Positions 1,455 through 38,668 of a stretch of DNA of 45,952 nucleotides are shown one piece after another. Every line of letters starts with the position of its first letter. Positions within the stretch are counted from its first letter, which is position 1. The DNA is from a virus. Location: IMG/VR virus record IMGVR_UViG_3300029319_000098, positions 1 through 45,952 of that record; one strand, 5' to 3'. Under the pieces are notes generated by a model that searched no databases, was not told the origin of the DNA, and saw only the letters and a list, made by a program, of their open reading frames with translations. The position numbers and the translations under genes were made by a program.

Positions 1455-1752
1455 TTTTCAAGAAATACAAGCACTGAATATGCAAGAGTGCTCAGTAGTG
1501 CAAGTAAATGCTTCTTGGAATTTTAAAAATAGAGTAAAGATAGAAAAACTTGCTGACCTTTGTTACGTAGCAGAAATAGATTTAAGTAATAAAACTATAG
1601 GTGCTGTAGTACAGAAAGAGTGGGGTATTAAAGTAGTACCTACTATTATAATTCTTAAAGAAGGTAAAGAAGTTATGAGATATGAACCTGGTATTAGTAT
1701 GAGGTTTGATGAAAAAGAAGTATTTGATAAGATTAAGAAAGAAATCAGATGA
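1369..1752 (+). CDS. Exported thioredoxin-fold protein
   Basis: The 127-residue protein starts with a signal-peptide-like stretch (SYLVLMLFSSLSWLHS, about 7-22). The rest follows thioredoxin order: a VVQVNASWN strand-loop (about 43-51) where the CxxC site normally lies, then DLSNKTIGAVVQKEWGIKVVPTIIIL with the conserved cis-Pro in KVVPT, then KEGKEVMRYEPG. The CxxC redox pair is absent, so it is probably not a dithiol oxidoreductase. Two Cys at about 42 and 65 remain. GAGG precedes the ATG. It overlaps the 1356 ORF upstream and the 1749 ORF downstream (ATGA). Confidence 0.65.
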   Translation: MNNRFISYLVLMLFSSLSWLHSQSVNLTSFQEIQALNMQECSVVQVNASWNFKNRVKIEKLADLCYVAEIDLSNKTIGAVVQKEWGIKVVPTIIILKEGKEVMRYEPGISMRFDEKEVFDKIKKEIR

Positions 1753-1862
1753 TTAAAGTAACTAAATTATCTGGTAAGAGACGAAAGTATAATTTAAATG
1801 GCAAGAAAAAAAAGAAAAGCAAAAAGAAAAAGCTCAGGAAAAAAACCAAATCCTACAAATAA
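1749..1862 (+). CDS. 37-residue lysine-rich ORF nested with the next gene
   Basis: It starts in an ATGA overlap with the thioredoxin-like stop: MIKVTKLSGKRRKYNLNGK, then an almost pure Lys/Arg tail ending TKSYK. It shares 65 bases with the 1798 gene in another frame. The A-rich DNA is basic in both frames, so the overlap could be genuine dual coding or by-product. No ribosome site beyond a weak AAGAAA is visible. Confidence 0.4.
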   Translation: MIKVTKLSGKRRKYNLNGKKKKKSKKKKLRKKTKSYK

Positions 1863-1980
1863 AGCACTATACTCTAGAGTAAAAGCAGCAGCAAAAAGAA
1901 AGTTTAAGGTTTATCCTTCTGCTTATGCTAATGCTTGGTTGGTTCGTGAATATAAAAAACGTGGTGGTAGATATAGCTAA
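1798..1980 (+). CDS. Small basic phage protein (YPSAYANAW type)
   Basis: The 60-residue protein has a Lys/Arg-rich N-terminus (1-20) followed by a conserved-looking helical module: NKALYSRVKAAAKRKFKVYP, then SAYANAWLVREYKKRGGRY. From memory, the pattern of basic residues followed by YPSAYANAW recurs in small proteins of marine phages and environmental viral contigs; function is unknown. It ends in a TAATG overlap with the next gene, so the two are probably translationally coupled. Confidence 0.7.
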   Translation: MARKKRKAKRKSSGKKPNPTNKALYSRVKAAAKRKFKVYPSAYANAWLVREYKKRGGRYS

Positions 1981-2264
1981 TGGCTTACAAAGGTGGTTTA
2001 ACTAAGTGGTTTAAAGAAAACTGGGTAGACATTGGTGCACCTAAGAAAGGTGGAGGCTACAAAAAATGTGGTAGGTCTAAATTAAAAGCCGATAAAAAAA
2101 GAAAATACCCTAAGTGTGTACCAGCTGCAAAAGCTGCTCGTATGACTAAATCACAAATAAGAAGTGCAGTAAGTAGAAAGAGAGCAAGAGCACAGGGTGT
2201 AGGTGGTAAACCTACAAATGTAAAAACATTTGCTAAAAAAACTAATAATAAAAAGAGGAGATAA
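1980..2264 (+). CDS. Small basic protein with KCGR/KYPKCVPAAKA motif
   Basis: The 94-residue protein has an N-terminal GLTKWFKENWVDIGAPKKGG segment, then KKCGRSK, KYPKCVPAAKAARMT, and a basic tail. This motif order recurs, from memory, in small phage proteins of unknown function; I believe a DUF exists (DUF5872 comes to mind) but could not check it. The two Cys in similar contexts (about residues 30 and 46) could bind metal together. It is coupled by TAATG to the preceding gene. Confidence 0.72.
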   Translation: MAYKGGLTKWFKENWVDIGAPKKGGGYKKCGRSKLKADKKRKYPKCVPAAKAARMTKSQIRSAVSRKRARAQGVGGKPTNVKTFAKKTNNKKRR

Positions 2265-2267
2265 GTT

Positions 2268-2378
2268 ATGCCAAAACATACCAAAAGAAAGATGAAGAAG
2301 AAGAAAAACGGTTTAACTAAAAAGCAAAAGACTTTACCAAAGTTTTTACAAAAAGCAATATTAAAAAAGAAAAAGTAA
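2268..2378 (+). CDS. 36-residue lysine-rich peptide
   Basis: The ORF reads MPKHTKRKMKKKKNGL, continues with Lys-rich repeats and ends KKKK. An AAGAGGAG ribosome site precedes the ATG and the stop overlaps the next start (TAATG). It is another member of the basic micro-protein cluster; no function can be assigned. Confidence 0.55.
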   Translation: MPKHTKRKMKKKKNGLTKKQKTLPKFLQKAILKKKK

Positions 2379-2680
2379 TGCCAGTAAAAAGAAAAAGTAA
2401 AAGAGACCCAAGGTTAAAAAGAGCAGGTGTATCAGGTTATAATAAACCTAAACGTACACCTAATCACCCTAAAAAATCTCATATAGTTGTAGCAAAAGAG
2501 GGCAGTAAAATAAAGACTATAAGATTTGGGCAACAAGGAGCTAAGACTGCTGGTAAACCAAAAGCAGGAGAGTCTCGAAGAACTAAAATGAAACGTAAAA
2601 GTTTCAAAGCAAGACATAGAAGAAACATAGCTAAGGGTAAGATGAGTGCAGCTTACTGGGCTAATAAAGTTAAATGGTAA
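2378..2680 (+). CDS. Basic virion-associated protein (GYNKPKRTPNHP family)
   Basis: The 100-residue, strongly basic protein has a core reading SGYNKPKRTPNHPKKSH (about 19-35), then IKTIRFGQQGAKTAGKPKAG and a C-terminal KSFKARHRRNIAKGKMSAAY. The same GYNKPKRTP segment begins the truncated gene at the right edge (45,894), so the phage has two copies. From memory, similar KMSAAYWAN-ended proteins occur in marine phages. The genomic position among virion genes suggests a DNA-binding or structural role; that is inference. Confidence 0.72.
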   Translation: MPVKRKSKRDPRLKRAGVSGYNKPKRTPNHPKKSHIVVAKEGSKIKTIRFGQQGAKTAGKPKAGESRRTKMKRKSFKARHRRNIAKGKMSAAYWANKVKW

Positions 2681-2690
2681 GGAGAATAAA

Positions 2691-2843
2691 ATGAATATAG
2701 TAGTAAGTAAATTGTTAACAAGTTTGTTAAGTGAAAAAATTCTTAAGGCTGTGTTATTAAAACTTGGTGAATATTTCATTAAGAAATCAGAAAATAAACT
2801 AGATGATGAAATCTGGGCTGAAGTTAAAAAAGCATTAAAGTAA
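2691..2843 (+). CDS. 50-residue amphipathic protein
   Basis: I chose the ATG at 2691 because GGAG lies six bases upstream; an upstream in-frame start at 2646 lies inside the previous gene. The product (MNIVVSKLLTSLLSEKILKA, ending AEVKKALK) has a moderately hydrophobic N-terminal helix and an acidic/basic C-terminal helix. It might be a small membrane-active lysis peptide, but no family is recognised. Confidence 0.6.
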   Translation: MNIVVSKLLTSLLSEKILKAVLLKLGEYFIKKSENKLDDEIWAEVKKALK

Positions 2844-2854
2844 AGGAGAAGAAA

Positions 2855-2890
2855 ATGAACTGCGAGTGTAATTGCTGTGGAGGTTGTTAA
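2855..2890 (+). CDS. 11-residue cysteine-rich micro-ORF
   Basis: The peptide is MNCECNCCGGC, with five Cys in eleven residues. A good ribosome site (AAAGGAGAAG) lies just upstream. The stop overlaps the ATG of the 2890 gene in TAATG, as most neighbouring genes overlap. It could be a tiny metal-binding or redox peptide, or a leader peptide controlling translation of the large tail gene. It lies below normal gene-calling length, so confidence rests on the ribosome site and composition. Confidence 0.5.
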   Translation: MNCECNCCGGC

Positions 2891-5064
2891 TGCCTAAACA
2901 GGCTATTAGCATTAAGTCTTTTGATAAAGGATTTATAGATAAAATATCTCAACGTGATTTAACACCTGGTACATTAGCAGAAGCTAAAAATGTAGATGTT
3001 AGTGTGCAAGGTGTTATTAAAAATGGAGACGGATTTTCTGCTGCAGATGCAACATTAACTTCTGGCTCTGGAGGTACAGCTATATCTAATGCAAACCTAT
3101 CCCTGTTGCCAGGGTATGGGATTTTTACGTTCAAATCTGATGTAGCACCTAAATCAAGCAAGAGCTCTGGTGAACACTTAGTATATACTAGTGGTACAGG
3201 TAAAGTATTTATTAATGACTCTGCTTCATCATCAGGCAGTTCAACACTAATAGAGTTTGATAGTGCTGCTGACATAGGTTCTAATGTAAAAGCTGTATAT
3301 TATTATGCAGACGGTGGATTAAGAATATCTTCTACAAACTTTGAAGGTAATACTGATACAAGAAAACAAGCATTTATTAGACAATCAAGAAGTGATAGTA
3401 ACACTATGTATAATACTACGCTTGGTGATAATATGCACTTATTTACTAGTGGATTAGCTGCACCTGTAGTTGGTACATTTACACAATTTACACCAGCTAC
3501 ACCAGACGCAACTTCAAACGGAAGTACAGTAGCTAATGATATTGGTTTAGGTATAGCAGCAGTAGGTACAGACGGACTGTGGCAACCAGGTAATTACGCA
3601 ATAGGTCTTAGCTATGTGTATCACAACAATCAAGAATCTTTAATTACAAATTGGAGTTCTAACTTAGATATTACAGAAGGTCAATATCCTATAATACAAA
3701 TATCAATAGATGATGACGTATTAGATACAGCTACACAAGAAAAGTTTATACAAGGTATGAGAGTATATCTTAGAAACTTAACTGCAGGTGATGAAGAATA
3801 TGTATTGCTAATTGATGTAGACTTTGAACAAGGTTCTAGAATATCTTTGACTGACGAGTTTGATGCTTTTGCTGCTAAAACAGATTATGTAATAACAGAT
3901 GATTCTAGAAATGACGAGTCTGATACTACAGCTTATGAAGTAAAACAAGCAAACATAGAAACATATTCTACTATAAATGGTTTTGCACCTAATGAACACG
4001 CTATACATTTTTACAATGATACGTTTGGATATAAGACAGCAGTAGTAGCTAATCAAAGAGCTTTTGTAGGTAATGTAAAGTATAAAGACGCTGTTAATAA
4101 AACAAAAATTATGGGAGATAGAATACAATATAGCCCTACATTAAGATATGATACATTTCCACAAACATACTTCATAGACATTGGGGCTAATGACGGAGAT
4201 GAGATTGTAAAATTATTAGAATTTAGAGATAGATTATTCGTCTATAAAAAGAATAAACTATTTATTATAAACATATCTTCTAACACAGATGCTGGCTGGT
4301 ATCTTGAAGGAGAGTTTTTAAATCGTGGTGTAACTAATCCTAATGCTGTTATCAAAACAGACATAGGTATTATATGGGCTAATGAGCACGGACTGTTTGC
4401 ATTTTCTAGAGGTATACAAAAACTTTCAGAGTTTATAAAAGAGGAAACTTGGAGAACAAATCTTGATAATGATAATATTATGGTAGGCTTTGTTCCAAAA
4501 AGAAATCAAGTATTAGTTGTAAAAGATTGTGGTAATGTTGCAGACGCTGGATATATTTATGATTTACAAACAAAATCTTTTGTAAACATAGATGAAGATA
4601 ATGTTCTTAGTATGGGTGGTGCAGCAGATAATAGACCTATAAGTAATTTTATATTATTAAATAATGAATTGTGTACTTTTGTAGATGATACATTAAACAG
4701 TGATAACAATAATAAACTTAAGTTCTTTGATGTTGATACAAATGTTTCTCAATCTATAGATATTCAAACACCAGCTTTTACACAAGGTGGAGAATCAGTA
4801 GATAAAAAATATTATTCTGTATATGTGACATATCAAAACAATGGTTCAGGATTACAACTCAAAGCAAAATATAATGACACTACGTATGATGATATATTTA
4901 CTGGTAGTAATTTATTAAACTCAAGTTCATTGATTACTCAAGAGTATGTAATAACAACACCAGTATTTAAAAAATCTATACAACTACAAATAGTAGGAAC
5001 TACAGCAACAGATTTTGAATTACAAGATATAACTATTGTAGCTAGAGCTAAGGGAGTTAGATAG
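2890..5064 (+). CDS. Large tail protein, possible podoviral nozzle/stabilisation type
   Basis: The start is the ATG at 2890, overlapping the micro-ORF stop; an upstream in-frame start at 2872 lies inside that ORF. The 724-residue protein opens FDKGFIDKISQRDLTPGTLAEAKNVDV. It later has alternating strand-rich segments such as LLEFRDRLFVYKKNKLFII, IGIIWANEHGLFAFSRG and MVGFVPKRNQVLVVKD, which resemble propeller blades. Podoviral tail nozzle and stabilisation proteins (P22 gp10, T7 gp12) have propeller folds, and the family opening about assigning values to a list of features is common in marine phages. The exact role is inferred. Confidence 0.65.
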   Translation: MPKQAISIKSFDKGFIDKISQRDLTPGTLAEAKNVDVSVQGVIKNGDGFSAADATLTSGSGGTAISNANLSLLPGYGIFTFKSDVAPKSSKSSGEHLVYTSGTGKVFINDSASSSGSSTLIEFDSAADIGSNVKAVYYYADGGLRISSTNFEGNTDTRKQAFIRQSRSDSNTMYNTTLGDNMHLFTSGLAAPVVGTFTQFTPATPDATSNGSTVANDIGLGIAAVGTDGLWQPGNYAIGLSYVYHNNQESLITNWSSNLDITEGQYPIIQISIDDDVLDTATQEKFIQGMRVYLRNLTAGDEEYVLLIDVDFEQGSRISLTDEFDAFAAKTDYVITDDSRNDESDTTAYEVKQANIETYSTINGFAPNEHAIHFYNDTFGYKTAVVANQRAFVGNVKYKDAVNKTKIMGDRIQYSPTLRYDTFPQTYFIDIGANDGDEIVKLLEFRDRLFVYKKNKLFIINISSNTDAGWYLEGEFLNRGVTNPNAVIKTDIGIIWANEHGLFAFSRGIQKLSEFIKEETWRTNLDNDNIMVGFVPKRNQVLVVKDCGNVADAGYIYDLQTKSFVNIDEDNVLSMGGAADNRPISNFILLNNELCTFVDDTLNSDNNNKLKFFDVDTNVSQSIDIQTPAFTQGGESVDKKYYSVYVTYQNNGSGLQLKAKYNDTTYDDIFTGSNLLNSSSLITQEYVITTPVFKKSIQLQIVGTTATDFELQDITIVARAKGVR

Positions 5065-5432
5065 TGAGAACTAAAGCAACACACGCAGCAGGTACAAGTA
5101 AAGTGCTCAGAAAAGGAGCAGTGAGCACCAATGGTATGAAAAATGGTGAAGAAATATTACAATACCACAACGGTAAACTAAAAGTAATTAGAAAAGAATT
5201 TGGTAAACTATTTGAAATGGAATACAAAAGAGCTGACCATAGAGAGTTAGAAACTTTTGCAAAGTTTTCAGATGTTAAAAGACCACAAAAAAATGCTATA
5301 AAAGTTATCAAAGAAGGTGTAAGAATAGCAGACGACAGAAAATTATTTGCTACACTGCCAGATACATCAGAAGCACAAGCTGAAACAGGAGAAGCAGTAG
5401 TATCTAGTGGTAACATTTTACCAAAACCATAG
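5064..5432 (+). CDS. Hypothetical virion-region protein
   Basis: The 122-residue protein starts at a GTG that overlaps the previous TAG stop. It reads MRTKATHAAGTSKVLRKGAV and is Lys-rich in the middle, then acidic and Ala-rich at the end. No domain is recognised. It lies between the tail protein and the first ejection-type protein, in the same operon. A 54-base AT-rich gap follows with no clear structure. Confidence 0.65.
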   Translation: MRTKATHAAGTSKVLRKGAVSTNGMKNGEEILQYHNGKLKVIRKEFGKLFEMEYKRADHRELETFAKFSDVKRPQKNAIKVIKEGVRIADDRKLFATLPDTSEAQAETGEAVVSSGNILPKP

Positions 5433-5486
5433 ATTATAGTAGAAATGAAGACAAGTATATTTATAAATTAAAGAGGGATTACAATT

Positions 5487-6650
5487 ATGTACGGAAAGTC
5501 ACCAGGACAACAGGCAGTAGAAGACTATACTCTAGTACAACTAGAGGCAGATAGTGCTATGTCCGAAGCAAGATTCGACACAGCTACTGAAGGACTAAGA
5601 AGTGAAGGTATAATCAGAGGCTATCTAAACGATTTTAGAAAAGACGCAGCAGCAGCTTTGGCTAGGCTTAATAAAAAGAAAAAAGGAACAGGAATAGGTA
5701 GATTAGTCGGTGGACTTGTTGGTACAGGTATAGCTCTTGCAAACCCTGCTTTGGGTTTAGCAGCAAGAGCAGCGTTACCAGCAGCTGGTAGTTTATTAGG
5801 TGGAGCAGCAGCAGGTGGATTTAAAGATGTAAAAGTAAACCTTCCTGATAGAGTAAGAGACAAATTAGTTTTTTTAAAAAGCAAAGAAAAAGACGCTTAT
5901 CAACAAGCAGAAGAATTTGAAGCTGCTATAAAACAATCTGATACAGACTTTGAACAAATGCAAGTTATAAAATCTGGAACATCTTTTATAACAAATCTTG
6001 GAACACAAGCTATTTTAGATAATATGAAACTAAATGTTCCAGTAGGTGAAGGTGCTGATGCTATAACTAAAGATGTATCTTTTGCAGAAGCTAGAAAAAT
6101 TTTAGGTGATGATTACAAATTTATAGACTACATAGGAGACGTGCTTACAGTATCAGCAGGTGGAAAGCCAGAAGATACAATAGGTGCTCTTTCAGGAAAA
6201 CTTACAGAAGCAACAAAAGCTGCAGCAAGAGATGATGTATCAACTGTTATAAAAACTGCTACTGATACTAGAACTGCTACTGATACTAGATTTGTAGAAG
6301 GTACTAGATTTGTAGAAGGTATAGGTTATACAGATATTCCAACTCTTGAGTTATCTGACATTTATGAAGAAGTACCAAATGGGTTGTTAAATTTAAATGA
6401 GGAGCAAAGAGATTTAGCTTTAAAAGGTTTAGATAAATTAAGAGGTGGAAGAGAGAACTTTAGTCTTCTTGATAGTTATTTAGAACGTGTACTAGCATTT
6501 GACGACAGGTATAGATTTAATAATATTGAAGGATATTTTGACGGTGCTCCTGATTATGTTAAAGGTGAATATAGCACCCTCCTAAGTGTAACACCTCGTA
6601 TTTTAGATGAATACGATTTTGACGCACTAATAAAGGCAGGGTTAGAGTAA
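5487..6650 (+). CDS. Internal virion / DNA-ejection protein candidate
   Basis: The 387-residue protein has an acidic helical N-terminus, a Lys patch (KKKKGTG about residues 62-68), then a glycine/alanine-rich hydrophobic stretch (about 70-110) that could insert in a membrane. Podoviral ejection proteins combine such Ala/Gly-rich segments with long helices. Residues about 257-280 are four hexapeptide repeats. It is followed by three more genes of the same character, ending with a 1,665-residue protein. The stop overlaps the next ATG (TAATGG). Confidence 0.6.
   Translation: MYGKSPGQQAVEDYTLVQLEADSAMSEARFDTATEGLRSEGIIRGYLNDFRKDAAAALARLNKKKKGTGIGRLVGGLVGTGIALANPALGLAARAALPAAGSLLGGAAAGGFKDVKVNLPDRVRDKLVFLKSKEKDAYQQAEEFEAAIKQSDTDFEQMQVIKSGTSFITNLGTQAILDNMKLNVPVGEGADAITKDVSFAEARKILGDDYKFIDYIGDVLTVSAGGKPEDTIGALSGKLTEATKAAARDDVSTVIKTATDTRTATDTRFVEGTRFVEGIGYTDIPTLELSDIYEEVPNGLLNLNEEQRDLALKGLDKLRGGRENFSLLDSYLERVLAFDDRYRFNNIEGYFDGAPDYVKGEYSTLLSVTPRILDEYDFDALIKAGLE
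6255..6326 (+). repeat. Four 18-bp tandem repeats inside an ejection-protein gene
   Basis: Two exact copies of ACTGCTACTGATACTAGA (6255-6272, 6273-6290) are followed by TTTGTAGAAGGTACTAGA (6291-6308) and a diverged copy. The encoded hexapeptides are TATDTR, TATDTR, FVEGTR, FVEGIG. The unit keeps frame and shares the ACTAGA end, so it looks like in-frame expansion of a linker by slippage or unequal recombination. Confidence 0.85.
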
Positions 6651-7450
6651 TGGCTATAAAACCTTTTAAAATGCCAGACGTAGATGCTGCTTTCAAACAA
6701 TTAAATCCAAATCAAGTTGCACCAGGTAATGCTGCTGGACTTGGTTCTGGTAATTTATTAGGGCAACCAAACCCAGTAACTGCAGAAACTTTTACTATGC
6801 CAAACCTTGTACCTGACCCAATAATAGGAGATGAACCTACAGGGGGCACAACATATGGAGACCCAGATGTAAACGGAGGTATGGGTGGTGAAGAAGATGA
6901 AACTGCAACAGAGCAACCTGGACAAACACCTTTAGAATTATTACAATCTTTCTTTCCTGATGCAGATGTAGCTGAATTAGAGAAGCTTACTCGATTCGTG
7001 TCTGTAATCCCACAAGACATCTATGATGCAGCTGACGCTGATAATGAAATGTATCAGCTTATGCGTCAGGAAAGAACAGCACAGCTTGAAAGTGCAAGAG
7101 ATATGTCAGAGTCTTTGTTAAGAGATTCTTTATTTAGAAACTTAGAGCAAGCAAGAGGTATGGAGGGTAAGAGAGGTTTTGCTTTAGGTAGAAATATATA
7201 TGGTGATGTAAGTGACCAGGCAGCAACAAGATTTATGGGTGTACAATCTGATTTTGGTAGAGGTTTATATAATATAAATGAAGAAATACTAGGTCGTGTA
7301 AGAAGTGCACGTCAATATCTATCAAGTTTAGAAGCAAGACAAAGAGGGGACTTAATAAAGTTAGCAGACTTAGCTGATTTATTTGACCCTAAAGATGACG
7401 ATAACCAATTCGAAGGTTCAGATGACCAAGATGATTACGAACCAAGATAA
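6650..7450 (+). CDS. Virion/ejection-region protein with acidic tail
   Basis: The 266-residue protein has a Pro/Gly/Asn-rich N-terminal half (PNLVPDPIIGDEPTGGT) and a helical C-terminal half rich in Glu, Arg and Leu (about 130-245), ending in an acidic tail DDDNQFEGSDDQDD. It is coupled by overlap to the preceding gene. By size and position it resembles a small ejection or internal core protein; no family was recognised. Confidence 0.6.
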   Translation: MAIKPFKMPDVDAAFKQLNPNQVAPGNAAGLGSGNLLGQPNPVTAETFTMPNLVPDPIIGDEPTGGTTYGDPDVNGGMGGEEDETATEQPGQTPLELLQSFFPDADVAELEKLTRFVSVIPQDIYDAADADNEMYQLMRQERTAQLESARDMSESLLRDSLFRNLEQARGMEGKRGFALGRNIYGDVSDQAATRFMGVQSDFGRGLYNINEEILGRVRSARQYLSSLEARQRGDLIKLADLADLFDPKDDDNQFEGSDDQDDYEPR

Positions 7451-7466
7451 TAAACAGGATTAAAAA

Positions 7467-8678
7467 ATGAGTAAATTGTTGGAAAATATGGCAGTAATAA
7501 GAAGCTTTGCAAATAATGCAGCAGTTCAAAAAGTAGCAAGAGCAGATACTTTAAATCAAGTATTTCAATCTATAGCAGAAATTCCAAACGAAGTTATAAG
7601 ACAAGCTGGTGCTATGCAAATGGAAAATGAAAAAATAGATATGCAAAAACAACAAATAAAATTTAACCAAGAATATCAGTCTAAACAGTTACAATTAACA
7701 GAAGACGGTTTGCTTTTTGAGGCTTTAAAAGACAATAAAAAAGATTCAGTTTTAAACACTACCTATGACCCTTCTATGGAAGGAGCAGTGCAATCAGATT
7801 ATATTGACCCTACTCAGTTTGATACTGATATTTATAAAAATTTAGCAACAAGAACTAATGCAGATTTTAAAAATCAAGCACTTTTTGTGACTGACTACAA
7901 TAAAAAGAAACAAGAGTTAGGTGCTCTTACTAAGTCAGAAAACGAAACTAATTTAGAGTTTTTAGATAGAAAGATGAAAATGTACAAAGAGACAGAAAAT
8001 TTTCTAGCAACTTATTCTAATAAAAATACTGACTTTTATAAAAATGAATTGAAGAGTCTAGAAGATGAAGGAGCAGATTTATTAGCACAAACAACATCTG
8101 AAGTATACATAGACTTTTTAGAAAAAAATGCGTCTGCTTTAAATTTAGAAATAAGCCAAGTAAATCAAATCTCACAAACTTTAAGATATGCTAAAAATAA
8201 TCCAGAACAAGCTAGAGATATTACAAATAAATTTTTAGAAAATATTCAGTTAGATAAGTCTTTAAGTTTAACAGAACTACAACAGTTTACTCAGCTATAC
8301 CAATACGTGATGTCTCCAGATTTTGATTTTAACTTTGACCCAAATGACCCTTTTGTTAATAGTTTAAAAAGCTCTATCATAAAAACTGGTGAAAAATTAT
8401 TAGGAGCTACACCTAAAGAAGAACTACCTACAGAGCTAGAAAACTTTGATAATTTATTTACAGGCAAAAATATTGTAGCAAATGCTCCAGAAGGTTTTCC
8501 AAAAGATAGTCAACTGAAGTTTAACGTAAATGGTAAAGCAGTAATAGTAGGTAGAGGAGTGGTTGACCCACAAGCTTTAATGCCAGTGTATGAATATTTT
8601 GCTTTAGACCCTTCTAATAATACTGTAGTGAAAGTGTCACAACAAGAAGCATATGATTTATATAAACAACGTGATTAA
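7467..8678 (+). CDS. Helical internal virion protein candidate
   Basis: The 403-residue protein is predicted largely alpha-helical. Its N-terminal Gln/Lys-rich segment (IDMQKQQIKFNQEYQSKQLQ) may form a coiled coil, with many Asn/Lys/Glu residues after it. It ends VVKVSQQEAYDLYKQRD. Nothing enzymatic is seen. Position between two ejection-type genes suggests a DNA-ejection or inner-core role. Confidence 0.55.
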   Translation: MSKLLENMAVIRSFANNAAVQKVARADTLNQVFQSIAEIPNEVIRQAGAMQMENEKIDMQKQQIKFNQEYQSKQLQLTEDGLLFEALKDNKKDSVLNTTYDPSMEGAVQSDYIDPTQFDTDIYKNLATRTNADFKNQALFVTDYNKKKQELGALTKSENETNLEFLDRKMKMYKETENFLATYSNKNTDFYKNELKSLEDEGADLLAQTTSEVYIDFLEKNASALNLEISQVNQISQTLRYAKNNPEQARDITNKFLENIQLDKSLSLTELQQFTQLYQYVMSPDFDFNFDPNDPFVNSLKSSIIKTGEKLLGATPKEELPTELENFDNLFTGKNIVANAPEGFPKDSQLKFNVNGKAVIVGRGVVDPQALMPVYEYFALDPSNNTVVKVSQQEAYDLYKQRD

Positions 8679-8689
8679 GGGTATGAAAC

Positions 8690-25406: not shown

Positions 25407-25407
25407 A

Positions 25408-27552: not shown

Positions 27553-27625
27553 GCACTAATTTGCTTTATCGTCGGTAAAGGAGGGTTGTTTTCTAGCTGG
27601 AACGAGGACAAATTAGAGGAAAAAG

Positions 27626-27790
27626 GTGCTCAAAAAAAGTGCTCAGTGCTCATTAAAAACCGACTAGCTGGTCGGTTTAAGTCATTGGTCTAAGTGCTCA
27701 TATTGCTAACGTTACCGACGGTGCTCAACGAACTTTTTCTAACGTAATCTAGGCACAGGGGGGGCTTTGCACACAAAAAAAGAGGAGCAC
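27626..27790. repeat. Cluster of RGTGCTCA elements
   Basis: GTGCTC occurs at 27626, 27639, 27646, 27694 and 27721, and inverted (GAGCAC) at 27785. The extended form is R-GTGCTC-A in five of six. Spacing of the first three is 13 and 7 bases. The cluster is non-coding, so codon use does not explain it; about 59 copies occur in the window. It resembles iterons or protein-binding sites. Confidence 0.65.
27657..27678 (-). terminator. Hairpin terminator in the control region
   Basis: AAACCGAC (27657-27664), loop TAGCTG, GTCGGTTT (27671-27678). In the leftward direction it ends GTCGGTTTTT, giving a five-base U-run. It would terminate transcripts from the 27,936 promoter after about 250 bases. Confidence 0.7.
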
Positions 27791-27983: not shown

Positions 27984-28011
27984 TTGACAACAATCAATAA
28001 TAGTGTATAAA
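27984..28011 (+). promoter_or_regulatory. Rightward promoter, apparently giving a leaderless message
   Basis: TTGACA (27984-27989), 16 bases, TATAAA (28006-28011). The ATG of the first rightward gene is at 28019-28021, eight bases beyond the -10, so the transcript would begin at or next to the start codon. No ribosome site is present. Alternatively the real start codon lies downstream. Confidence 0.7.
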
Positions 28012-28018
28012 CTACAAT

Positions 28019-30342: not shown

Positions 30343-30520
30343 GTGTGTAAAGAACGCTAGGTTCGCAAACTTTATAAATTATTTCTTTGAAGGTGTTGTA
30401 GCAGAAGTAGAGCAAGATACATATATGGTTATTGATTGTCCTTGTTTTGCTATCTATGATGAAGATGATGAAATACTTGGAATATCAAAACAATTTGTAA
30501 AAGACCACGGAGACGCATAA
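30284..30520 (+). CDS. Cys-rich small protein between the terminase genes
   Basis: I choose the ATG at 30284 (MSKKSQSKLVNCLMCQKKTE) preceded by GGGTGGAG; the frame begins upstream at a GTG. It has CLMCQKKTEC and DCPCFAIYDED, giving five Cys that could form a zinc site. It overlaps the end of the small terminase gene by 59 bases and the start of the large terminase gene. Unknown function; possibly a packaging accessory. Confidence 0.6.
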   Translation: MSKKSQSKLVNCLMCQKKTECVKNARFANFINYFFEGVVAEVEQDTYMVIDCPCFAIYDEDDEILGISKQFVKDHGDA

Positions 30521-32076
30521 TGACAGTATCAGAAAAAGAACTATTACTACATAAAGCATCTAAAGATTTAATACTGTTTGGTAAATTATTTTTACCAAAT
30601 GATTTTTTACATAAATCTGAATCACCTCCCTTTCATTATGAGTTAGGTAAAAAATTAATTAGCACAAAACCTGGGGCACGTATTTGTAATGTGCTACCAA
30701 GAGGTTTTGGCAAATCTGTATTAATGAAAGCAGCCATAATGCACAAACTATGTTTTACTCCAAAAGACCAAGCACAGTTTATGGCGTGGGTTGCAGAAGA
30801 ACAAGGTCAGGCTATTGACCATTTAAAATATATACGTTCACATTTAGAAAACAATGATGCTATAAGATATTACTTTGGAAACTTATGTGGTGGTGATGAA
30901 AAACTACGTTGGACAGAAAAAGACTTAGTAACTACAAAAGGACATAGAATAATTGCAAAAGGTACATCACAAAGACTTAGAGGTCGTTCTGAAGTAGATT
31001 CTAGATATACTGGTATAATACTTGACGACTTTGAGTCAGAGTTAAATACAAAGACAGCAGATAGAAGAGATGAGATTAAACAATGGATTGTATCTACAGT
31101 ATACCCAGCATTAGAAGAATCACCAGGAAAAGAAGGTTGGATATGGTTGTCAGGTACTATTGTACACTATGACGCTTTCTTGCAAAACATACACGACGGT
31201 TACTTAGATTCACAAAAAGCTAGAAAGAAATATCCCTGGGACGTTACTTTTATTAGAGCTATTGAAAATGGTAAAGCAGTATGGAAAGAACAGTTTCCTT
31301 TAAAAAAGTTGGAACAAAAAAGACAAGAGTTTATTGAAGCAGGTAAGATAGATAAATTTGCACAAGAGTATCTAAATGATGCTAGAGATGTAGAAAGTGC
31401 AACATTTCAAATGGACAGACTACGTTATCATAGACACGAGTTTGTAAACAATAAAGGTTTTGCTTGTCTACGTAATGATACAGAAATCATACCAGTAAAT
31501 GTTTATATGGGAGTAGACTTAGCACATACAGCTACAAAATCATCTGACTATCAAGTTATTATGATTATGGGTATAGACGCAAATAAAAATAGATATGTAA
31601 TAGATTATTATCACGATAAGATACCAGCTTTTGATATGCCAGATAAAATATTAGAATATGCAAAAAAATATGCACCTATTAAAAGAGTTGCCGTAGAAAC
31701 AGTAGGTGCTCAAGAAATGGTACGTGATATGGTAGAACGTATGGCTGTAAGAGAAAAAAGATTATTACCTGGTATTAATAAAGGTGTAAGACCACCACAC
31801 GGTATTAAAAAAGAAGATAGATTAGAAATGACATTAGGTTCTATAGTAAATGGTAGAAAGTTATTGATAAGAAAAGAACACTCTGAATTAGTAGACGAGT
31901 TGTTTCAGTTTCCAAAAGGTAGACACGATGACTTGCTTGACGGATTGTATTATTCAGACTTCTATGCAAAACCACCCAGAACAAAAACTATGGAGATAGA
32001 TAACAACGAAAGACCTGATGATTTTATAACTAAAACAAGAAAACAAATAAATTGGGTGACAGGACTAAAAGTATGA
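30520..32076 (+). CDS. terL: Terminase large subunit
   Basis: The 518-residue protein is the packaging motor and nuclease. The ATPase has a Walker A-like LPRGFGKS at 59-66 and Walker B ILDDFE at 167-172. The nuclease has GVDLAH (Asp333), VAVET (Glu393) and GRHDDLLDGLYY (Asp470/471/474), a RNase H-like fold. The order and length fit the podoviral/P22-T7-like terminases. The start codon overlaps the preceding stop (TAATG), so the packaging proteins are made in coupled amounts. Confidence 0.95.
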   Translation: MTVSEKELLLHKASKDLILFGKLFLPNDFLHKSESPPFHYELGKKLISTKPGARICNVLPRGFGKSVLMKAAIMHKLCFTPKDQAQFMAWVAEEQGQAIDHLKYIRSHLENNDAIRYYFGNLCGGDEKLRWTEKDLVTTKGHRIIAKGTSQRLRGRSEVDSRYTGIILDDFESELNTKTADRRDEIKQWIVSTVYPALEESPGKEGWIWLSGTIVHYDAFLQNIHDGYLDSQKARKKYPWDVTFIRAIENGKAVWKEQFPLKKLEQKRQEFIEAGKIDKFAQEYLNDARDVESATFQMDRLRYHRHEFVNNKGFACLRNDTEIIPVNVYMGVDLAHTATKSSDYQVIMIMGIDANKNRYVIDYYHDKIPAFDMPDKILEYAKKYAPIKRVAVETVGAQEMVRDMVERMAVREKRLLPGINKGVRPPHGIKKEDRLEMTLGSIVNGRKLLIRKEHSELVDELFQFPKGRHDDLLDGLYYSDFYAKPPRTKTMEIDNNERPDDFITKTRKQINWVTGLKV

Positions 32077-32630
32077 GATTTCGAGTAATAAAAGGTGTTA
32101 ATTTTTTCAGGGGTATGTATAGTATAAAAGAATACATTGACTACTTAAAAAGGGTAGAGGGTTATGCGAACAAAGTAGGGGACAAGTTTTTTCCCTATGA
32201 TTCGCCTGAAGGTGGATTAAAAACTATAGGGTATGGATATAAAATTAAAACCCTTGAAGAACAAAACACTTTAGAAAAAACAGGATTATCTTCAACGGAA
32301 GTAGAAGAGATACTGCAAGAAGAGGCAGAAAAATCTTATCGAGGTGCTCAAAAATTTTGTGAGCAAAAAAATATAGATTGGGAAAGTATAGATATTAGAC
32401 TTCAATTTGCATTAGCAGACTATGTCTTTAATGTTGGTAGTCTAAGAAAATTTCCAACTACTGTTAAATGTTTAGCTGCAGGAGATGTTGAAGGTGCAGT
32501 AGCAGATGATAAAGGTAGACCAGGCTTTAAAGAATACGAAAGAGTTTACCGTGATAAAAACGGAGTAAGAAAACCATTAGGTAGAAACAAAGAGTTCTAC
32601 AAAGAGTTTTTAAAACCATATTTAGTTTAG
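32073..32630 (+). CDS. Endolysin, GH24 (T4-lysozyme-like)
   Basis: I choose the ATG at 32073, in an ATGA overlap with terminase and with AGGA upstream; the frame is open upstream to a TTG at 32052. The 185-residue protein has the GH24 triad: Glu29 in KRVEG, Asp43 in PYDSP and Thr51 in LKTIGYGYK. It cleaves peptidoglycan at the end of infection. No clear signal peptide or SAR anchor; a short basic/hydrophobic N-terminus precedes. It sits among packaging genes rather than next to a holin. Confidence 0.92.
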   Translation: MRFRVIKGVNFFRGMYSIKEYIDYLKRVEGYANKVGDKFFPYDSPEGGLKTIGYGYKIKTLEEQNTLEKTGLSSTEVEEILQEEAEKSYRGAQKFCEQKNIDWESIDIRLQFALADYVFNVGSLRKFPTTVKCLAAGDVEGAVADDKGRPGFKEYERVYRDKNGVRKPLGRNKEFYKEFLKPYLV

Positions 32631-32639
32631 GAGAACAAT

Positions 32640-32867
32640 ATGATGTATCAAGATAAAATGGGTTTATTTAAAAAAGGTAAAAAGAAACTAAAAAATAAAC
32701 TCAAAGAAATCAAAGGAAGATTCAATATAGATTATGCTAATCAACAAATAGATACTTTAAATAGACAACAAGGTACTAATGTAGATTTTTTAAGTAGAGA
32801 AACTATGCAACTACAAAAAGCTAAAAGAGACGCTAGAGCAAGAAGAAGAGATTTCCGTGGCAATTAG
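32640..32867 (+). CDS. Small basic protein upstream of portal
   Basis: The 75-residue product MMYQDKMGLFKKGKKKLKNK has basic ends and a Gln-rich helical middle (YANQQIDTLNRQQGTNVDFL). AGGAG precedes the ATG. It overlaps the portal start by 11 bases. Possibly a head-assembly accessory; no family recognised. Confidence 0.6.
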   Translation: MMYQDKMGLFKKGKKKLKNKLKEIKGRFNIDYANQQIDTLNRQQGTNVDFLSRETMQLQKAKRDARARRRDFRGN

Positions 32868-34857
32868 AGAAGACGACAAAGCAAGACTCAATAGAGAAAT
32901 ATTTAGAAAATACGCTGACGCAAGAAAAGACTGGGACGTAAATGCAAGAGAAGCTATAGACTTTACTCTTGGTAATCATTTTACTGCAGAAGAGTCAGAA
33001 GTATTACAATCAATAGGACAAGCAGATTTTACGATAGATAGAATATATGCAGCGATAGATAAGTTAAAATCTTTGATGACATCTAGACCTGTAAAGTATG
33101 GGATTACAGCACGAGAAGATTCTGATACCAAACTAGCAAATGTTTGGAAGACTCTTTTAGAGTATATATTCGATATATCAGACGGGCAGCATCATTTCAA
33201 ACAAGCAGTTCACGACTACGCAACTACAGGGTTAGGTTATTTTTATGCGTATATAGAACCAGAAGCTGACTATGGAAGAGGAGAAGTTAAGTTTACACAC
33301 TTAAATCCTTTTAGGGTATATGTAGACCCTGCATCTAGAGACAGATATTTTCAAGATGCTGCCAGTATAATTATGTCAACTATCTTAACACAAGAACAGT
33401 TGATTAATTTATATCCAGACGTACTACCTTTTCTTAAAGACATAGAAACATTTAGTCAACAAGATGTGTACGATGATTATCCTAATTCACAAAATAAAAA
33501 CACCAACACTGTATTTACTCCAGCTGAAGTAGATTCAAAAGATTATGATATATCTATTACAAGTAGATATAGAATACTTGAACGTTTTAGTAAAGTAAGA
33601 GTACCATTTTTTAGAGTTGCATCTATCAGAGACGACGCTGAACAAATAATGAGTGCAGAACAGTTTGGTGTTTTTATGGAACAAAATGAAAAAGAATTTA
33701 ATAATGGTATCTATCAATTTGTAGAAATACCTCAAACAAGAATTAAAGTAACAGCATCTATAGGACAAGTATTATTATACGAAACAATTTTAGATACTGA
33801 TATATATCCTATTATTCCAATACCAAATATTTGGACTAATACACCATATCCTAAATCAGATGTAAATAAAGTAAAAGATATGCAAAGACTTTTAAATAAA
33901 TTATTTAGTTTAGCTTTATCTCACGCACAAACAGCAGCTGGTTTAAAACTTATGATACCTCAAGGTAGTGTAGAAGATTTATCTCAAATAGAAAAAGATT
34001 GGGCTAATCCTAATGCTGTTATTGAATATGACCCAAGTTATGGTGAACCACATTTAGCTCAACCACAACCATTGTCTGGTGAGTTTTATGCTTTGATTAA
34101 TCAAGTAGAAAGATATATAGATTTAAATTTTGGAGTGCCAGAATTGTTACAAGGTTTTAAATCTGGTGCAGCAGATAGTGTACGTGGTACTATGTTATTA
34201 GCACAAATGGGTGAAGGTAGAGGTGCTAGTAAACTTAGAGATATAGAAATGTCACTACAACAATTAGGTAAAGTATTATATCAAATGTCAAAAGGACATT
34301 ATACTTTTGAGAAAAGTTTTAGAATTGTACAACCAAATAATGATATTACAGAGTTTACAATTAATAATCGTTTGTATGATGATAAGAAAAAAGAAATACT
34401 TACAATACAAAATGATATAACATCAGGACAATTTGATGTTAGAATTATGGCTGGTTCTACAATGCCTTCTAATAAATATGCAGAATATCAAATGTATATG
34501 GAAGCATATCAGTTAGGATTAATTGATAAAGTAGAAGCATTAAAGAAAACAGAAATATATGATAAAGAAGGTGTGCTTCAAAGAACAGGAGAAGTACAAA
34601 GACTTCAAAGTATTATTGGTCAATTACAAGACCAAATTAAAGAGCTTTCTGGCGATTTACAAACAGCACAAAGAGAGTCTGTATCTGATAGAAAACGTGT
34701 GGAAGTTGAGAAGTTCAAATCGAAACTTAACAAATCACAAGTAGGTGTAGATGCTCAGTTGAAAATAGACGCAGAAAAACAAAGACAAAAACAAAATCAA
34801 GAGGTGACGTCCTCGTTAGAGAACTTTCAGAACCCTGAAATAGTATTGGACGAATAG
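32857..34857 (+). CDS. Portal protein
   Basis: The 666-residue protein starts at GTG with AAGAAGAG upstream. It has the portal-type N-terminal region (EIFRKYADARKDWDVNAREA, then DRIYAAIDKLKSLMTSRPVK), a central HLNPFRVYVDPASRDRYFQD segment, and a helical C-terminus containing GAADSVRGTMLLAQMG and a coiled-coil-like LQDQIKELSGDLQTAQRESV. These match P22-like/T7-like portal architecture. The product forms the dodecameric ring for DNA passage and terminase docking. Confidence 0.85.
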   Translation: MAIREDDKARLNREIFRKYADARKDWDVNAREAIDFTLGNHFTAEESEVLQSIGQADFTIDRIYAAIDKLKSLMTSRPVKYGITAREDSDTKLANVWKTLLEYIFDISDGQHHFKQAVHDYATTGLGYFYAYIEPEADYGRGEVKFTHLNPFRVYVDPASRDRYFQDAASIIMSTILTQEQLINLYPDVLPFLKDIETFSQQDVYDDYPNSQNKNTNTVFTPAEVDSKDYDISITSRYRILERFSKVRVPFFRVASIRDDAEQIMSAEQFGVFMEQNEKEFNNGIYQFVEIPQTRIKVTASIGQVLLYETILDTDIYPIIPIPNIWTNTPYPKSDVNKVKDMQRLLNKLFSLALSHAQTAAGLKLMIPQGSVEDLSQIEKDWANPNAVIEYDPSYGEPHLAQPQPLSGEFYALINQVERYIDLNFGVPELLQGFKSGAADSVRGTMLLAQMGEGRGASKLRDIEMSLQQLGKVLYQMSKGHYTFEKSFRIVQPNNDITEFTINNRLYDDKKKEILTIQNDITSGQFDVRIMAGSTMPSNKYAEYQMYMEAYQLGLIDKVEALKKTEIYDKEGVLQRTGEVQRLQSIIGQLQDQIKELSGDLQTAQRESVSDRKRVEVEKFKSKLNKSQVGVDAQLKIDAEKQRQKQNQEVTSSLENFQNPEIVLDE

Positions 34858-34879
34858 GAACATCTCGGAGGAGTTAAAA

Positions 34880-35608
34880 ATGGCAGATGTGCAAGAAAAA
34901 ATACAAGAAGAAACTTTAGAAGGTTCTGAAACTTCTGAAAACAATACCTTAAGTGAGCCTGAAATCATAGAAGATTCGAGTTCTGACGCAGATGAAGTGC
35001 GTAAATTCCAGTCTATGTATGATAAAGCTCAGGCTGAGTTAGGCAAATTAAGACCAGTAGCAAAGCTATTTCAGGATAATCCTGAGTTGGTTGACGTTGT
35101 TAGAAACCACTTAACAGGGGGTAAAGGACAAGATAAAGAACAAATACAAGTTAAATCAGAGGATTTTAATCCTTGGGACGCATATACAAATCCACAGTCT
35201 GAATCATATAAAATGAGACAGCAAGAGATTGATAGTGCAGTAGACGACAAAATGAAAGCATATATGGGAAGATTAGAACAACAGAGACAACAAGATACCT
35301 TGAAGTTTCAAGTTCAAAATGATTATAAATTAAGTAATCAAGAAGCTTCCGAGTTTGTAGATTTTGTTACTAGACCTAAAGAGACACTTCCTCTAGATAC
35401 TTTATTTAAGGTGTGGAGAGGTGATACTCCTGAAAGCAAAAGCTCACAAAACATTGACAGCGTTAGAAAGGCTCAGGATAAACCTAAGTCTGCTGGTTTA
35501 ATCCAAGGAGGACAACCAGAAAGACCTAAAGCTGATGATGATTTATGGGGTAGAATTATGCGTGCAGGTAACACTTCTAGCATCGGAAGTAATATTAAAA
35601 AACAATAA
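34880..35608 (+). CDS. Capsid scaffolding protein
   Basis: The 242-residue protein has an acidic, disordered N-terminus (EEETLEGSETSENNTLSEPE), a helix-rich middle (KFQSMYDKAQAELGKLRPVA), and a short basic end. It lies between portal and capsid genes, with CGGAGGAG upstream, the classic podoviral position and character of a scaffold. It would be lost from the mature head. Confidence 0.82.
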   Translation: MADVQEKIQEETLEGSETSENNTLSEPEIIEDSSSDADEVRKFQSMYDKAQAELGKLRPVAKLFQDNPELVDVVRNHLTGGKGQDKEQIQVKSEDFNPWDAYTNPQSESYKMRQQEIDSAVDDKMKAYMGRLEQQRQQDTLKFQVQNDYKLSNQEASEFVDFVTRPKETLPLDTLFKVWRGDTPESKSSQNIDSVRKAQDKPKSAGLIQGGQPERPKADDDLWGRIMRAGNTSSIGSNIKKQ

Positions 35609-35630
35609 AATTCTTTAGGAGGAATTTAAA

Positions 35631-37025
35631 ATGGCAATTACAAAAGGCACAATGAACGCTATACCTGTAGCTAATGAATCATTAGGTTCATTTAATACAG
35701 CTGTAACTGCTGCTGACTATGGACAAAGACCAGACCAAAGACGTAGATATAATTTTGGTGACAGAATCGCTGAATTAGCACCAGAAGAATCACCGTTTTT
35801 CGTTTATCTTAGTCAAACTGCTAAGCTTCCTACTGATGATAGTTTGTTTCGTTATCTTGAAGATAGAACAAAAATCGACTACACCAGTAGAGAGTTCCAA
35901 GTAAAATCAGACTTCGGTGGAGTATCAAGCTTAACAGCTGGTACTACTTTTACTATGGAAGTAGAGACATTAGACAGTACAGCAGCATCAGTTGACTTTT
36001 TAGTTAAAGGTATGGTACTTGCAGTTAAAACTGCAGCAGCATACGGAAACGCAATCTTAAGAGTAGAAGACGCACCAGCAGACCACGGTGCACACAGTTC
36101 TTTTACAGCTAAAGTAATTAGTGTTTCTGCAGCATCAGGTTCAGACGCAGTAGCAGCAGAAGACAGATGTCAAATTATTGGCTCTGCTTATGCAGAAGGT
36201 ACTGGTTCACCTGACGTATTTTCAGACAGCTTTGATGACAACTATGGGTATACCCAGATTTTCAAAACAGCAGCTGAAATTACAAATACAGCTATGGCTA
36301 CAAATATGAGAGGCGTAGCTAATGAGTTTGAAAGAGTATTAGCACAGAAAATGAGAGAACATAAAATCGACATTGAAAGAGCTATGCTTTTTGGACAAAA
36401 AGCTAGAGTTGGTGGTATTCAATACACAGAAGGTCTAGTTGGACATATTATTAAAAACAGTACATTTGTAGACGCAGGAGCAAGTGCTCCTTCAAATGCT
36501 TTATCTTATGAATCAGGTAAAGCGTATGCTAAAACATACACTACAGGTGAACTTACTTATGACAACTTGCTTTCTGACTTTGAAGTTCTATTCGACCCTG
36601 CAAGAGGTGGAAGTAATGAAAGATTAGCATTAGCTTCTCTTCCTGTTATTTCATACTTCAATAAAATGGGTGGTACTTCTTTCTCAGAAAACAGCACAAA
36701 TGGTTCACAGTACAGATTAAATATGGACGAATTAGCAGGTAGCTTCGGACATAAATTAATGGAAATTGATACTGTGCACGGTTCTGTTTACTTAGTGAAA
36801 GAGCCTCTATTTAGAGGTCACTCATCTGGATTAATGTTAATGGCAGATATGAGCAAATTATACTACAGACCATTAGTTGGTAATGGTATGAATAGAGATA
36901 CTGAGGTTATCGAAAATGTACAAGGTGCAGACGAAGACCTACGTAAGGATATGATTATTACCGAAGCTGGTCTTGAAGTATGCTTACCAGAGTCTCATTA
37001 TCTAATTAATTTAGAAGGAGTATAA
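35631..37025 (+). CDS. Major capsid protein
   Basis: The 464-residue protein has a strong AGGAGGA site. It opens GTMNAIPVANESLGSFNTAV with RIAELAPEESPFFVYLSQTA, has long E-loop-like and P-domain segments, and a C-terminal LLFRGHSSGLMLMADMSKLYY-type strand pattern ending SHYLINLEG. Position after the scaffold, size and abundant codons support the major capsid protein; it is probably HK97-fold but this was not tested. Highest-expression ribosome site in the region. Confidence 0.88.
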   Translation: MAITKGTMNAIPVANESLGSFNTAVTAADYGQRPDQRRRYNFGDRIAELAPEESPFFVYLSQTAKLPTDDSLFRYLEDRTKIDYTSREFQVKSDFGGVSSLTAGTTFTMEVETLDSTAASVDFLVKGMVLAVKTAAAYGNAILRVEDAPADHGAHSSFTAKVISVSAASGSDAVAAEDRCQIIGSAYAEGTGSPDVFSDSFDDNYGYTQIFKTAAEITNTAMATNMRGVANEFERVLAQKMREHKIDIERAMLFGQKARVGGIQYTEGLVGHIIKNSTFVDAGASAPSNALSYESGKAYAKTYTTGELTYDNLLSDFEVLFDPARGGSNERLALASLPVISYFNKMGGTSFSENSTNGSQYRLNMDELAGSFGHKLMEIDTVHGSVYLVKEPLFRGHSSGLMLMADMSKLYYRPLVGNGMNRDTEVIENVQGADEDLRKDMIITEAGLEVCLPESHYLINLEGV

Positions 37026-37027
37026 TA

Positions 37028-37501
37028 ATGGCTAAAGCAAGAATACTAGAACAAAATAGTGGTGCATTTGGAAAAGAAGTGTACCCTATTATTAAAGTAC
37101 AAGACTCAACTTCAGTAGTTGAATTATCAGTAGACCAAAGTGGTTCATTGGTAATCTTAAGAGCAAATGGTGGTAATAGATTAGTTAACTTACCTGACGC
37201 TGCTGACAATGCTGGAGTTTATTATGAGTTTATGGTTAACGAAAACCTAGACGGAACAGTATCAGTACAGTCTTTAGACGGTACTGACTTTTTCTTAGGT
37301 TTTGTATCTGACGCAGAAGTTGATGCTCAAGCAGAAGTAGCATTTAATGGTACTTCTCACGACCAAATGGTTTTTGCATCAGGTGCTGGTAAAGGTGACA
37401 TACACGTAAAGTGTATTTGTGACGGAGACAACTGGCTAGTTATTGGACAAGCTAACGATATATCTGATATATCTGCTGGCACAAGTTCAAGCAACACATA
37501 A
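37028..37501 (+). CDS. Capsid decoration / head protein candidate
   Basis: The 157-residue protein, beta-rich throughout (KVQDSTSVVELSVDQSGSLV), begins two bases after the capsid stop. Its size, beta character and position suggest a decoration protein or head-fibre component. Two Cys occur in KCICDGDNWL. No family is certain. Confidence 0.55.
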   Translation: MAKARILEQNSGAFGKEVYPIIKVQDSTSVVELSVDQSGSLVILRANGGNRLVNLPDAADNAGVYYEFMVNENLDGTVSVQSLDGTDFFLGFVSDAEVDAQAEVAFNGTSHDQMVFASGAGKGDIHVKCICDGDNWLVIGQANDISDISAGTSSSNT

Positions 37502-37522
37502 ACCGTATAGTACAAGCTACTG

Positions 37523-37543
37523 GGGGCAGGCATAGCTTGCCCC
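37523..37543 (+). terminator. GC-rich hairpin after the capsid genes
   Basis: GGGGCAGGC (37523-37531), loop ATA, GCTTGCCCC (37535-37543) makes a nine-pair stem with one G-T. It follows the capsid/decoration gene. The bases after it are CAAAAGC, not a T-run, so it may act as an RNA-processing or stability element that sets the capsid message apart from the connector genes. Confidence 0.6.
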
Positions 37544-37581
37544 AAAAGCTTGAAAGAATTTTTAACATATAGGAGAAAAAA

Positions 37582-37773
37582 ATGGCAAACTTTGATACAG
37601 AAACAAAGGTTATTATAAAAGAAATAGATGACAGAGCTTTTACAGCTACTGGCTCTTTAGCTAAAGAAATTAATGACCATATTGAGACTATCGATGACGC
37701 TAAGCTAGTAGATATAAAAGCAGTAAAACTAGACGGCACAAGAATTGCTTACATAGTTGTTAGCAAAGTATAA
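37582..37773 (+). CDS. Hypothetical protein, 63 residues
   Basis: The product MANFDTETKVIIKEIDDRAF is acidic and beta/alpha-mixed, ending AYIVVSKV. AGGAGAAAAA precedes the ATG and the stop overlaps the next start. Unknown function within the head-to-tail gene run. Confidence 0.6.
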   Translation: MANFDTETKVIIKEIDDRAFTATGSLAKEINDHIETIDDAKLVDIKAVKLDGTRIAYIVVSKV

Positions 37774-38018
37774 TGGCTAAATGTCAGCATTGTAATACAC
37801 CAAATCCAGAAGGTCATTTTAATTGTAGGTCTTGTGGTAAGAGAGCACACCCTCCAAGGTGGAGCACTCAGTTTGTTGTAAGAGATACTCCTATGGCAAC
37901 AGCAATTAGGAAAGACCTAATTAATTTTAGAGAAGTAGATATGGCAGAACATATGAAAAAGACTAAAGAAAAGAACGACCCACACGTAGAAGTGGATAAA
38001 CTATTTAAGGATAAATAA
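37773..38018 (+). CDS. Zinc-ribbon protein
   Basis: The 81-residue protein has CQHCNTPNPEGHFNCRSCGK at residues 4-23: two CxxC pairs that make a zinc ribbon. A basic strand follows (HPPRWSTQFVVRDTPMATAI) and the end is Lys/Glu-rich. It is coupled by TAATG on both sides. Zinc ribbons of this type occur in phage head-completion regions, but its partner is not visible. Confidence 0.75.
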   Translation: MAKCQHCNTPNPEGHFNCRSCGKRAHPPRWSTQFVVRDTPMATAIRKDLINFREVDMAEHMKKTKEKNDPHVEVDKLFKDK

Positions 38019-38668
38019 TGGCAACATTTGGAACACAAGTAGAAGACTTAACAGGAAGTTTGAGTGACAATACTGCACTTACTCAGTGGCTAACTGACGG
38101 TGCTCGTATGGTGCTCGATAATTTACCACTAGATAAGTTAGAAAGAGTTACAGAACACGTAGATTTTACTAATTCTGTTTCTAGTCAAGGTAAACGTATA
38201 CATCAAGTATTAAGACAAGATGCTAGTAATGGTAATAAACAAATGCCTTGTAGAAAATTAAGTCCTGCATTTTTAGGTAAAGTAAATGATACAGATTATA
38301 TGGAAGCAGCAACTACAAGTGACCCTGCATACATATTACACAATCATCTTATACAGACTTTTCCTGCTAGTGCTTCAGGTTCAGATAGTAGAGTAATATA
38401 TATAGATACTAGTATTACTGTAGCGTATGACGCTAGTCCTGGAAGTATAGAGGATTTGCCACAAGAAGCTGAATCAGTTATTGTATTATATGCAGCAAGA
38501 AATGGTTTAGAAAGATTAATTAGTAATGCTAATGTAGATGAAGACCCAGAATTAGTAGCATCTTTGATTGCTCAATATCAATTAGTTGATAGACAGTATA
38601 AAGAAGGTTTACAGATATTGGGTATAGATAAACTATATATAGAAAAAGATTTACCAGATAGACGATGA
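38018..38668 (+). CDS. Head-tail connector / adaptor candidate
   Basis: The 216-residue protein is helical: DNTALTQWLTDGARMVLDNL, a beta-rich middle (SDSRVIYIDTSITVAYDASP), and a helical end (SVIVLYAARNGLERLISNAN). A short N-terminal amphipathic helix followed by beta strands and C-terminal helix suits podoviral adaptor (gp4/gp11-like) proteins. Position between capsid and fibre genes supports it. Not a recognised family by motif. Confidence 0.65.
   Translation: MATFGTQVEDLTGSLSDNTALTQWLTDGARMVLDNLPLDKLERVTEHVDFTNSVSSQGKRIHQVLRQDASNGNKQMPCRKLSPAFLGKVNDTDYMEAATTSDPAYILHNHLIQTFPASASGSDSRVIYIDTSITVAYDASPGSIEDLPQEAESVIVLYAARNGLERLISNANVDEDPELVASLIAQYQLVDRQYKEGLQILGIDKLYIEKDLPDRR

Follow-up and report, generated by a model that had tools for sequence, protein, structure and literature searches.

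A dispersed GTGCTC motif in the early half of an uncultured phage lineage, a candidate site for a lineage-specific DNA-binding protein

Why should one six-base word recur dozens of times through half of a phage genome, on both strands and irrespective of the genes that it crosses? The question is raised by IMG/VR record IMGVR_UViG_3300029319_000098, a linear sequence of 45,952 bases from an uncultured, podovirus-like phage (the whole record is referred to here as the window), in which the hexamer GTGCTC or its complement GAGCAC occurs 61 times (37 GTGCTC, 24 GAGCAC). A sequence-only reading of the window had put the number at about 59, with about ten expected by chance; the strong excess stands, but Markov models of orders 1-3 give a higher expectation of 13-20 copies (15-20 for orders 2-3). 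Under a maximal-order Markov model GTGCTC is the most over-represented hexamer in the window (61 observed against 27.4 expected, z 6.4), and shuffling synonymous codons within the open reading frames (ORFs) yields 15.8 ± 3.3 copies, with a maximum of 24 in 300 shuffles, against 55 observed; the agreement with shuffled codons that would have overturned the sequence-only reading is thus not seen. The octamer RGTGCTCA, to which the earlier count of about 59 had been attached, is also enriched, with 33 copies against a single copy of a reversed-pattern control and 28 copies in ORFs against 4.6 after synonymous shuffling; since only 33 of the 61 hexamers extend to the full octamer, however, its number had been overstated.

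The copies are unevenly distributed. A leftward arm is flanked in the window by two rightward blocks, for which the labels early and late were inferred from gene content, and there is a non-coding control region at about 27.55-28.02 kb. Positions 9500..27600, comprising all of the leftward early arm together with the ejection gene's 3' part, hold 37 copies on both strands, and a further six form an array in the control region at 27626..27790 (27626+, 27639+, 27646+, 27694+, 27721+ and 27785-), five of them RGTGCTCA. These six had been recognised in the sequence-only reading, which described the motif as clustered in the control region; this is accurate as far as it goes, but the enrichment also extends to the entire early arm and, within the ejection gene, to its 3' part. 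Nine sparser copies fall in positions 1-9500, among the tail and internal-protein genes (1488..9251; 1488+, 2188-, 4384-, 5103+, 5123-, 6184+, 6544+, 7921+ and 9246+), and nine in positions 27800-38116, at approximately background density in the rightward structural genes (29249..38116). None lies beyond 38116, in keeping with the reported absence from the last part of the window. The pair described in the ejection gene (12218..12235, plus strand) likewise agrees in position and translation, the two copies being 12 bases apart and both in frame as GTG CTC (Val-Leu), and the other positions named were correct save 27341, which is 27340.

Relatives were collected by a terminase search of IMG/VR, giving 80 loci at 62-99% identity whose whole records form two main sets, labelled here clades A and B; the labels are this report's own, and A is not one clade in every gene tree. 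Genes in the relatives are mechanical ORFs with a minimum length of 40-60 amino acids. Among clade-A records of useful length, most have GTGCTC ranked first or second of all hexamers, and clade-A relatives longer than 35 kb carry 54-92 copies; the signal is weaker where a partial record includes only a small portion of the early arm. Clade-B records show no more than background (9-19 copies per record of 37-64 kb), and the early domain differs 26-fold between the clades (3.12/kb in A against 0.12/kb in B), whereas hexamers with a single mismatch differ by no more than about 3-fold wherever clade B has more than a few copies. These variants rule out a general bias towards GC-rich hexamers. Terminase identity between A and B is about 80%, and the replication and structural genes are common to both.

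The outstanding word of clade B is instead CGTTTAAA/GTTTAAAC, the palindrome being present in 24-30 copies against about 2 expected in records containing the early arm, and GTTTAAAC is concentrated in the same domain as the clade-A motif. The clade-B word has a preferred orientation (73:18) and is 3.6-fold denser outside coding sequence, and for that reason the A and B motifs may be different kinds of site. In the leftward arm of clade-B records (e.g. L113-L115 and L109-L110), elements of the AGAGCGTTTAAACG type are also dispersed, mostly aligned with transcription and enriched in non-coding DNA; they may be promoter or operator elements. More distant relatives (exonuclease identity 45-54%) have neither word at high density; the distant relative L157 has its own repeated word, AGCTAAACGG, at 3485-8509, often paired about 20-27 bases apart.

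Density in clade A reaches 7-9/kb at the control region and is about 3/kb, i.e. one copy per ~330 bp, through the early arm into the ejection gene. Leftward it declines with distance from 2.8 to 0.6/kb, while to the right of the control region there is a sharp step down to background (0.2-0.7/kb). The two strands of the leftward early arm are equal (142 plus, 149 minus), coding and non-coding DNA of the domain are similarly dense (3.1/kb and 3.8/kb), and all six coding frames hold 2-14 times the number expected from synonymous shuffling. The flanks are also constrained, with R before the hexamer and R-A after it (R-GTGCTC-R-A) and C at +7 in 1% of copies; right of the control region these preferences are lost. 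In 13 pairwise alignments, sites were retained 1.1-2.2 times as often as GC-matched hexamers (e.g. 61% versus 30%, with the smallest margin at 33% versus 29%). Many sites turn over, and better retention despite this turnover is read as selection both on the word and on its density. Spacing outside the array is near random (coefficient of variation 0.89), and a spacing rule was not seen.

An array of 3-6 copies occupies the same place in 14 of 14 clade-A records and in no clade-B record, and its direct repeats adjoin an AT-rich conserved block that clade B keeps without GTGCTC. A consensus match to a leftward sigma-70-like promoter, the putative early promoter, is found at 27520..27565 on the minus strand (TTGACA-17-TACGTT). 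In subclade A1 the array sits upstream of this putative promoter, with 57-78 bases between the -35 element and the closest copy in six A1 genomes; a stricter promoter scan did not recover it, and in subclade A2 none was recognised. Again by consensus matching, most clade-B genomes have a closer leftward promoter match than most A1 genomes, and do so without the array. A putative rightward promoter (TTGACA-18-TAAACT, 27984..28013, plus strand) lies outside the array. It ends so near the start codon (ATG, 28019) that the first messenger RNA in the rightward direction would have almost no leader, and the arrangement in relatives looks alike.

Selection at the DNA level acts on the motif, which is spread across the early half and forms an array beside a putative early promoter. 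The favoured interpretation, to which a probability of about 0.5 is assigned, is that R-GTGCTC-R-A would be a short asymmetric site recognised by a lineage-specific DNA-binding protein that acts on the early half; protein binding is also the best supported of the functions that the sequence-only reading had offered. The reader could be encoded by the phage or be a host factor that the phage exploits, and would prefer AGTGCTCAA over a scrambled site. Bound to the array it would determine how active the leftward early promoter is; bound to the dispersed copies it would either block elongation through the early region or organise that region, the copies together making a dense, non-oriented set resembling operators or stoperators. 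Activation would fit the weaker promoter match in most A1 genomes than in most clade-B genomes together with an upstream array, while roadblock repression would fit copies throughout the transcribed region. The orientation that stoperators are reported to show (PMC6550527) was absent, so the motif is not filed as a stoperator. If these are binding sites, they make up an unusually dense dispersed regulatory or tagging set that covers one genome half regardless of strand and coding, and the sister clades, which combine a common backbone with distinct words and distinct cassettes, provide a natural experiment on how dozens of sites are respecified at once.

Several observations weigh against a lineage-specific binding protein. 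No such protein was identified, nor any A-specific candidate with a known DNA-binding domain. Unlike classical stoperators, the motif has no significant preference for either strand when the domain is divided into 4-kb bins, a plus bias being limited to the array, and clear cooperative clustering is absent outside the array. The contrast between A and B counts as a single evolutionary event or a few; in the exonuclease tree B falls next to part of A, moderately supported, and the remaining trees lack resolution. Between A and B the winged-helix HTH_39 protein (16028-16246) hardly differs, and thus leaves the switch between clades unexplained; being strongly conserved across both, it was rejected as the specificity factor.

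Iterated profile searches found that the DUF7192 protein (24396..25406) and an adjoining AAA_5 (MoxR/CobS-like) ATPase (25408..26790, both on the minus strand) are the only early-arm families that all clade-A genomes extending to the locus possess and all clade-B genomes lack; clade B carries a different gene cassette. The apparent lack of both genes in G015 probably reflects a contig that stops short of the locus, judging by the position of the locus in its sister G020. As a link to the reader, this co-distribution of cassette and motif is suggestive but weak. Neither the AAA ATPase nor DUF7192 is a known DNA-binding family, which also counts against the favoured interpretation, as do distant AAA relatives in other phages without GTGCTC enrichment. 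The presence/absence match is perfect within the family, yet the pair is not claimed as the reader because of those motif-free relatives and the small number of evolutionary events. An AlphaFold model of DUF7192 was unusable (predicted local distance difference test score 40.6), and a literature search for papers naming the motif returned none of relevance. Other viruses with three-copy GTGCTCA arrays were also discarded, the densest among the matches listed being one-sided in the extended motif, as coding repeats would be.

The best rival is a Chi-like signal, in which host RecBCD or AddAB would read the motif, with the phage DNA protected and recombination stimulated, and the hosts of clades A and B would differ in their Chi word. 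This is possible but unlikely. A short asymmetric word that occurs in all frames, independently of genes, is conserved and lies to one side of the control region would suit it, as would the Erf protein and exonuclease that the phage encodes. Chi, however, works in one orientation, and here the two strands of the early arm show the same enrichment (142 versus 149); a non-coding, promoter-side array would not be expected, and the motif of clade B has an orientation and favours non-coding DNA. The palindromes avoided by A and by B differ in part (TCGA, CGCG), which suggests different hosts and in that respect favours a Chi word that changes with the host. Recombinase-positive lambdoid phages do show an excess of Chi (PMC3784561), but the ~3/kb observed here greatly exceeds the 0.2/kb found in E. 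coli phages. A Chi-like role, which the sequence-only reading had raised, therefore retains some probability, although strand balance over most of the domain and the array beside the promoter weigh against a standard Chi.

Two further proposals are more doubtful than Chi, and about equally so. The motif might be a tag for phage self-recognition, a high-density, strand-neutral hexamer restricted to the early half and recognised by a lineage-specific reader, and the wholesale difference in the sister clade of both the word and the control-region cassette (MoxR-like ATPase, DUF7192) bears on this proposal. Alternatively, many weak sites might nucleate at the array and cover the early half for compaction, silencing, partition or protection at first entry, with no control of individual promoters. 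Flat density over coding and non-coding DNA and over both strands, near-random spacing and the step at the control region would all be compatible with such DNA-organising or partition sites, but the proteins scanned included no ParA/ParB, HU-like or nucleoid protein, and the spacing follows no visible rule.

Considerably less probable is that the control-region copies are origin iterons and the dispersed copies secondary initiator sites. The array does consist of direct repeats beside an AT-rich conserved block, but clade B keeps that block without GTGCTC, and at least 40 dispersed copies in the early half would not be expected of iterons. Two functions proposed in the sequence-only reading fare poorly: a packaging signal finds no support, the copies numbering dozens and being at background level around the terminase genes, and a link with methylation finds none either, the motif being enriched where restriction targets are depleted and no methyltransferase having been found among the proteins scanned, which did not include every ORF. 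The last proposal, a by-product of codon or dinucleotide bias or of restriction avoidance, for which the strong avoidance of several palindromes in these phages could be cited, has almost no likelihood left, being refuted, as the earlier dismissal of codon bias had anticipated, by the codon shuffles and single-mismatch controls as well as by enrichment in six frames, the equally dense non-coding DNA with its array and a sister clade that lacks the motif.

The surrounding genome offers some context. The window also encodes a DnaB-like helicase (13684-15084, minus strand), the Erf annealing protein (17758-18411, minus strand), the PD-(D/E)XK exonuclease (18457-19452, minus strand), the terminase large subunit (30520-32076), the portal (32857-34857) and the major head protein (35631-37025), and a scan of it for transfer RNAs and Rfam families found none. 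The lineage is uncultured. No close relative was found among annotated phages, where terminase matches were all below 60% identity (~26% for those listed), the portal matched a single phage at 22%, and the exonuclease and DUF7192 had no match; a host search with the terminase against GTDB genomes also gave no match. Several restriction-type palindromes are avoided to an extreme degree: GATC is avoided in both clades (5 observed versus 905 expected in A, 0 versus 750 in B), GGCC, GCGC and GGTACC are nearly absent too, and CGCG and TCGA are avoided in B only, which suggests hosts with many restriction systems that differ in part between the clades. A second lineage-specific element of the early arm has CCGWCGG-like cores, with 18 CGTCGG sites in 21800-27730 (e.g. 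27563-27580), several of them with self-complementary, variable arms such as CTTTACCGACGATAAAG; the corresponding region of subclade A2 has GAACGCGTTC/CGCGTTC. Two partly similar proteins lie at the ends of the record (16-948 and 45271-45894), both containing MSEFYSY; the former has residues that by eye resemble a Hint/intein domain, with no Pfam match.

Among known systems, the stoperators of Cluster A mycobacteriophages (L5, Bxb1) are dispersed in 20-30 oriented copies, and their words differ between related phages (PMC6550527). The motif described here resembles them in being a short asymmetric site that is both dispersed and placed at an early promoter (here a consensus match). Clade B has GTTTAAAC in the same domain, but with an orientation and at greater density in non-coding DNA, and this word may be another kind of site. 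The GTGCTC motif differs from stoperators in its higher copy number (54-92 in records longer than 35 kb), its shorter word, its lack of transcription-linked orientation outside the array and its equal presence in coding and non-coding DNA, and neither a repressor nor an integrase was identified. The C1 operators of phage P1 are asymmetric repressor sites scattered over the genome, but they are longer, fewer and mostly non-coding, whereas the sites here are shorter, more numerous and found in coding DNA too; no P1 C1 homologue was seen, and no test was aimed at likeness to P1.

Bobay et al. reported that Chi is over-represented in recombinase-positive lambdoid phages without RecBCD inhibitors, that it is concentrated in lambdoids between the replication genes and the terminase, and that its density in E. 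coli phages is 0.2/kb (PMC3784561). The likeness lies in a short asymmetric word that runs through coding DNA and is enriched in one section of the genome, while the absence of strand bias in the early arm, a density about 15 times that of Chi in E. coli phages and the promoter-side array set the motif apart. DNA uptake sequences and HIP1-type tags, finally, are tags of host genomes in which a short, all-or-none word occurs at high density in all frames. The GTGCTC motif shares their density and their indifference to frame, but occupies half of a phage genome and is joined by an array beside a putative promoter.

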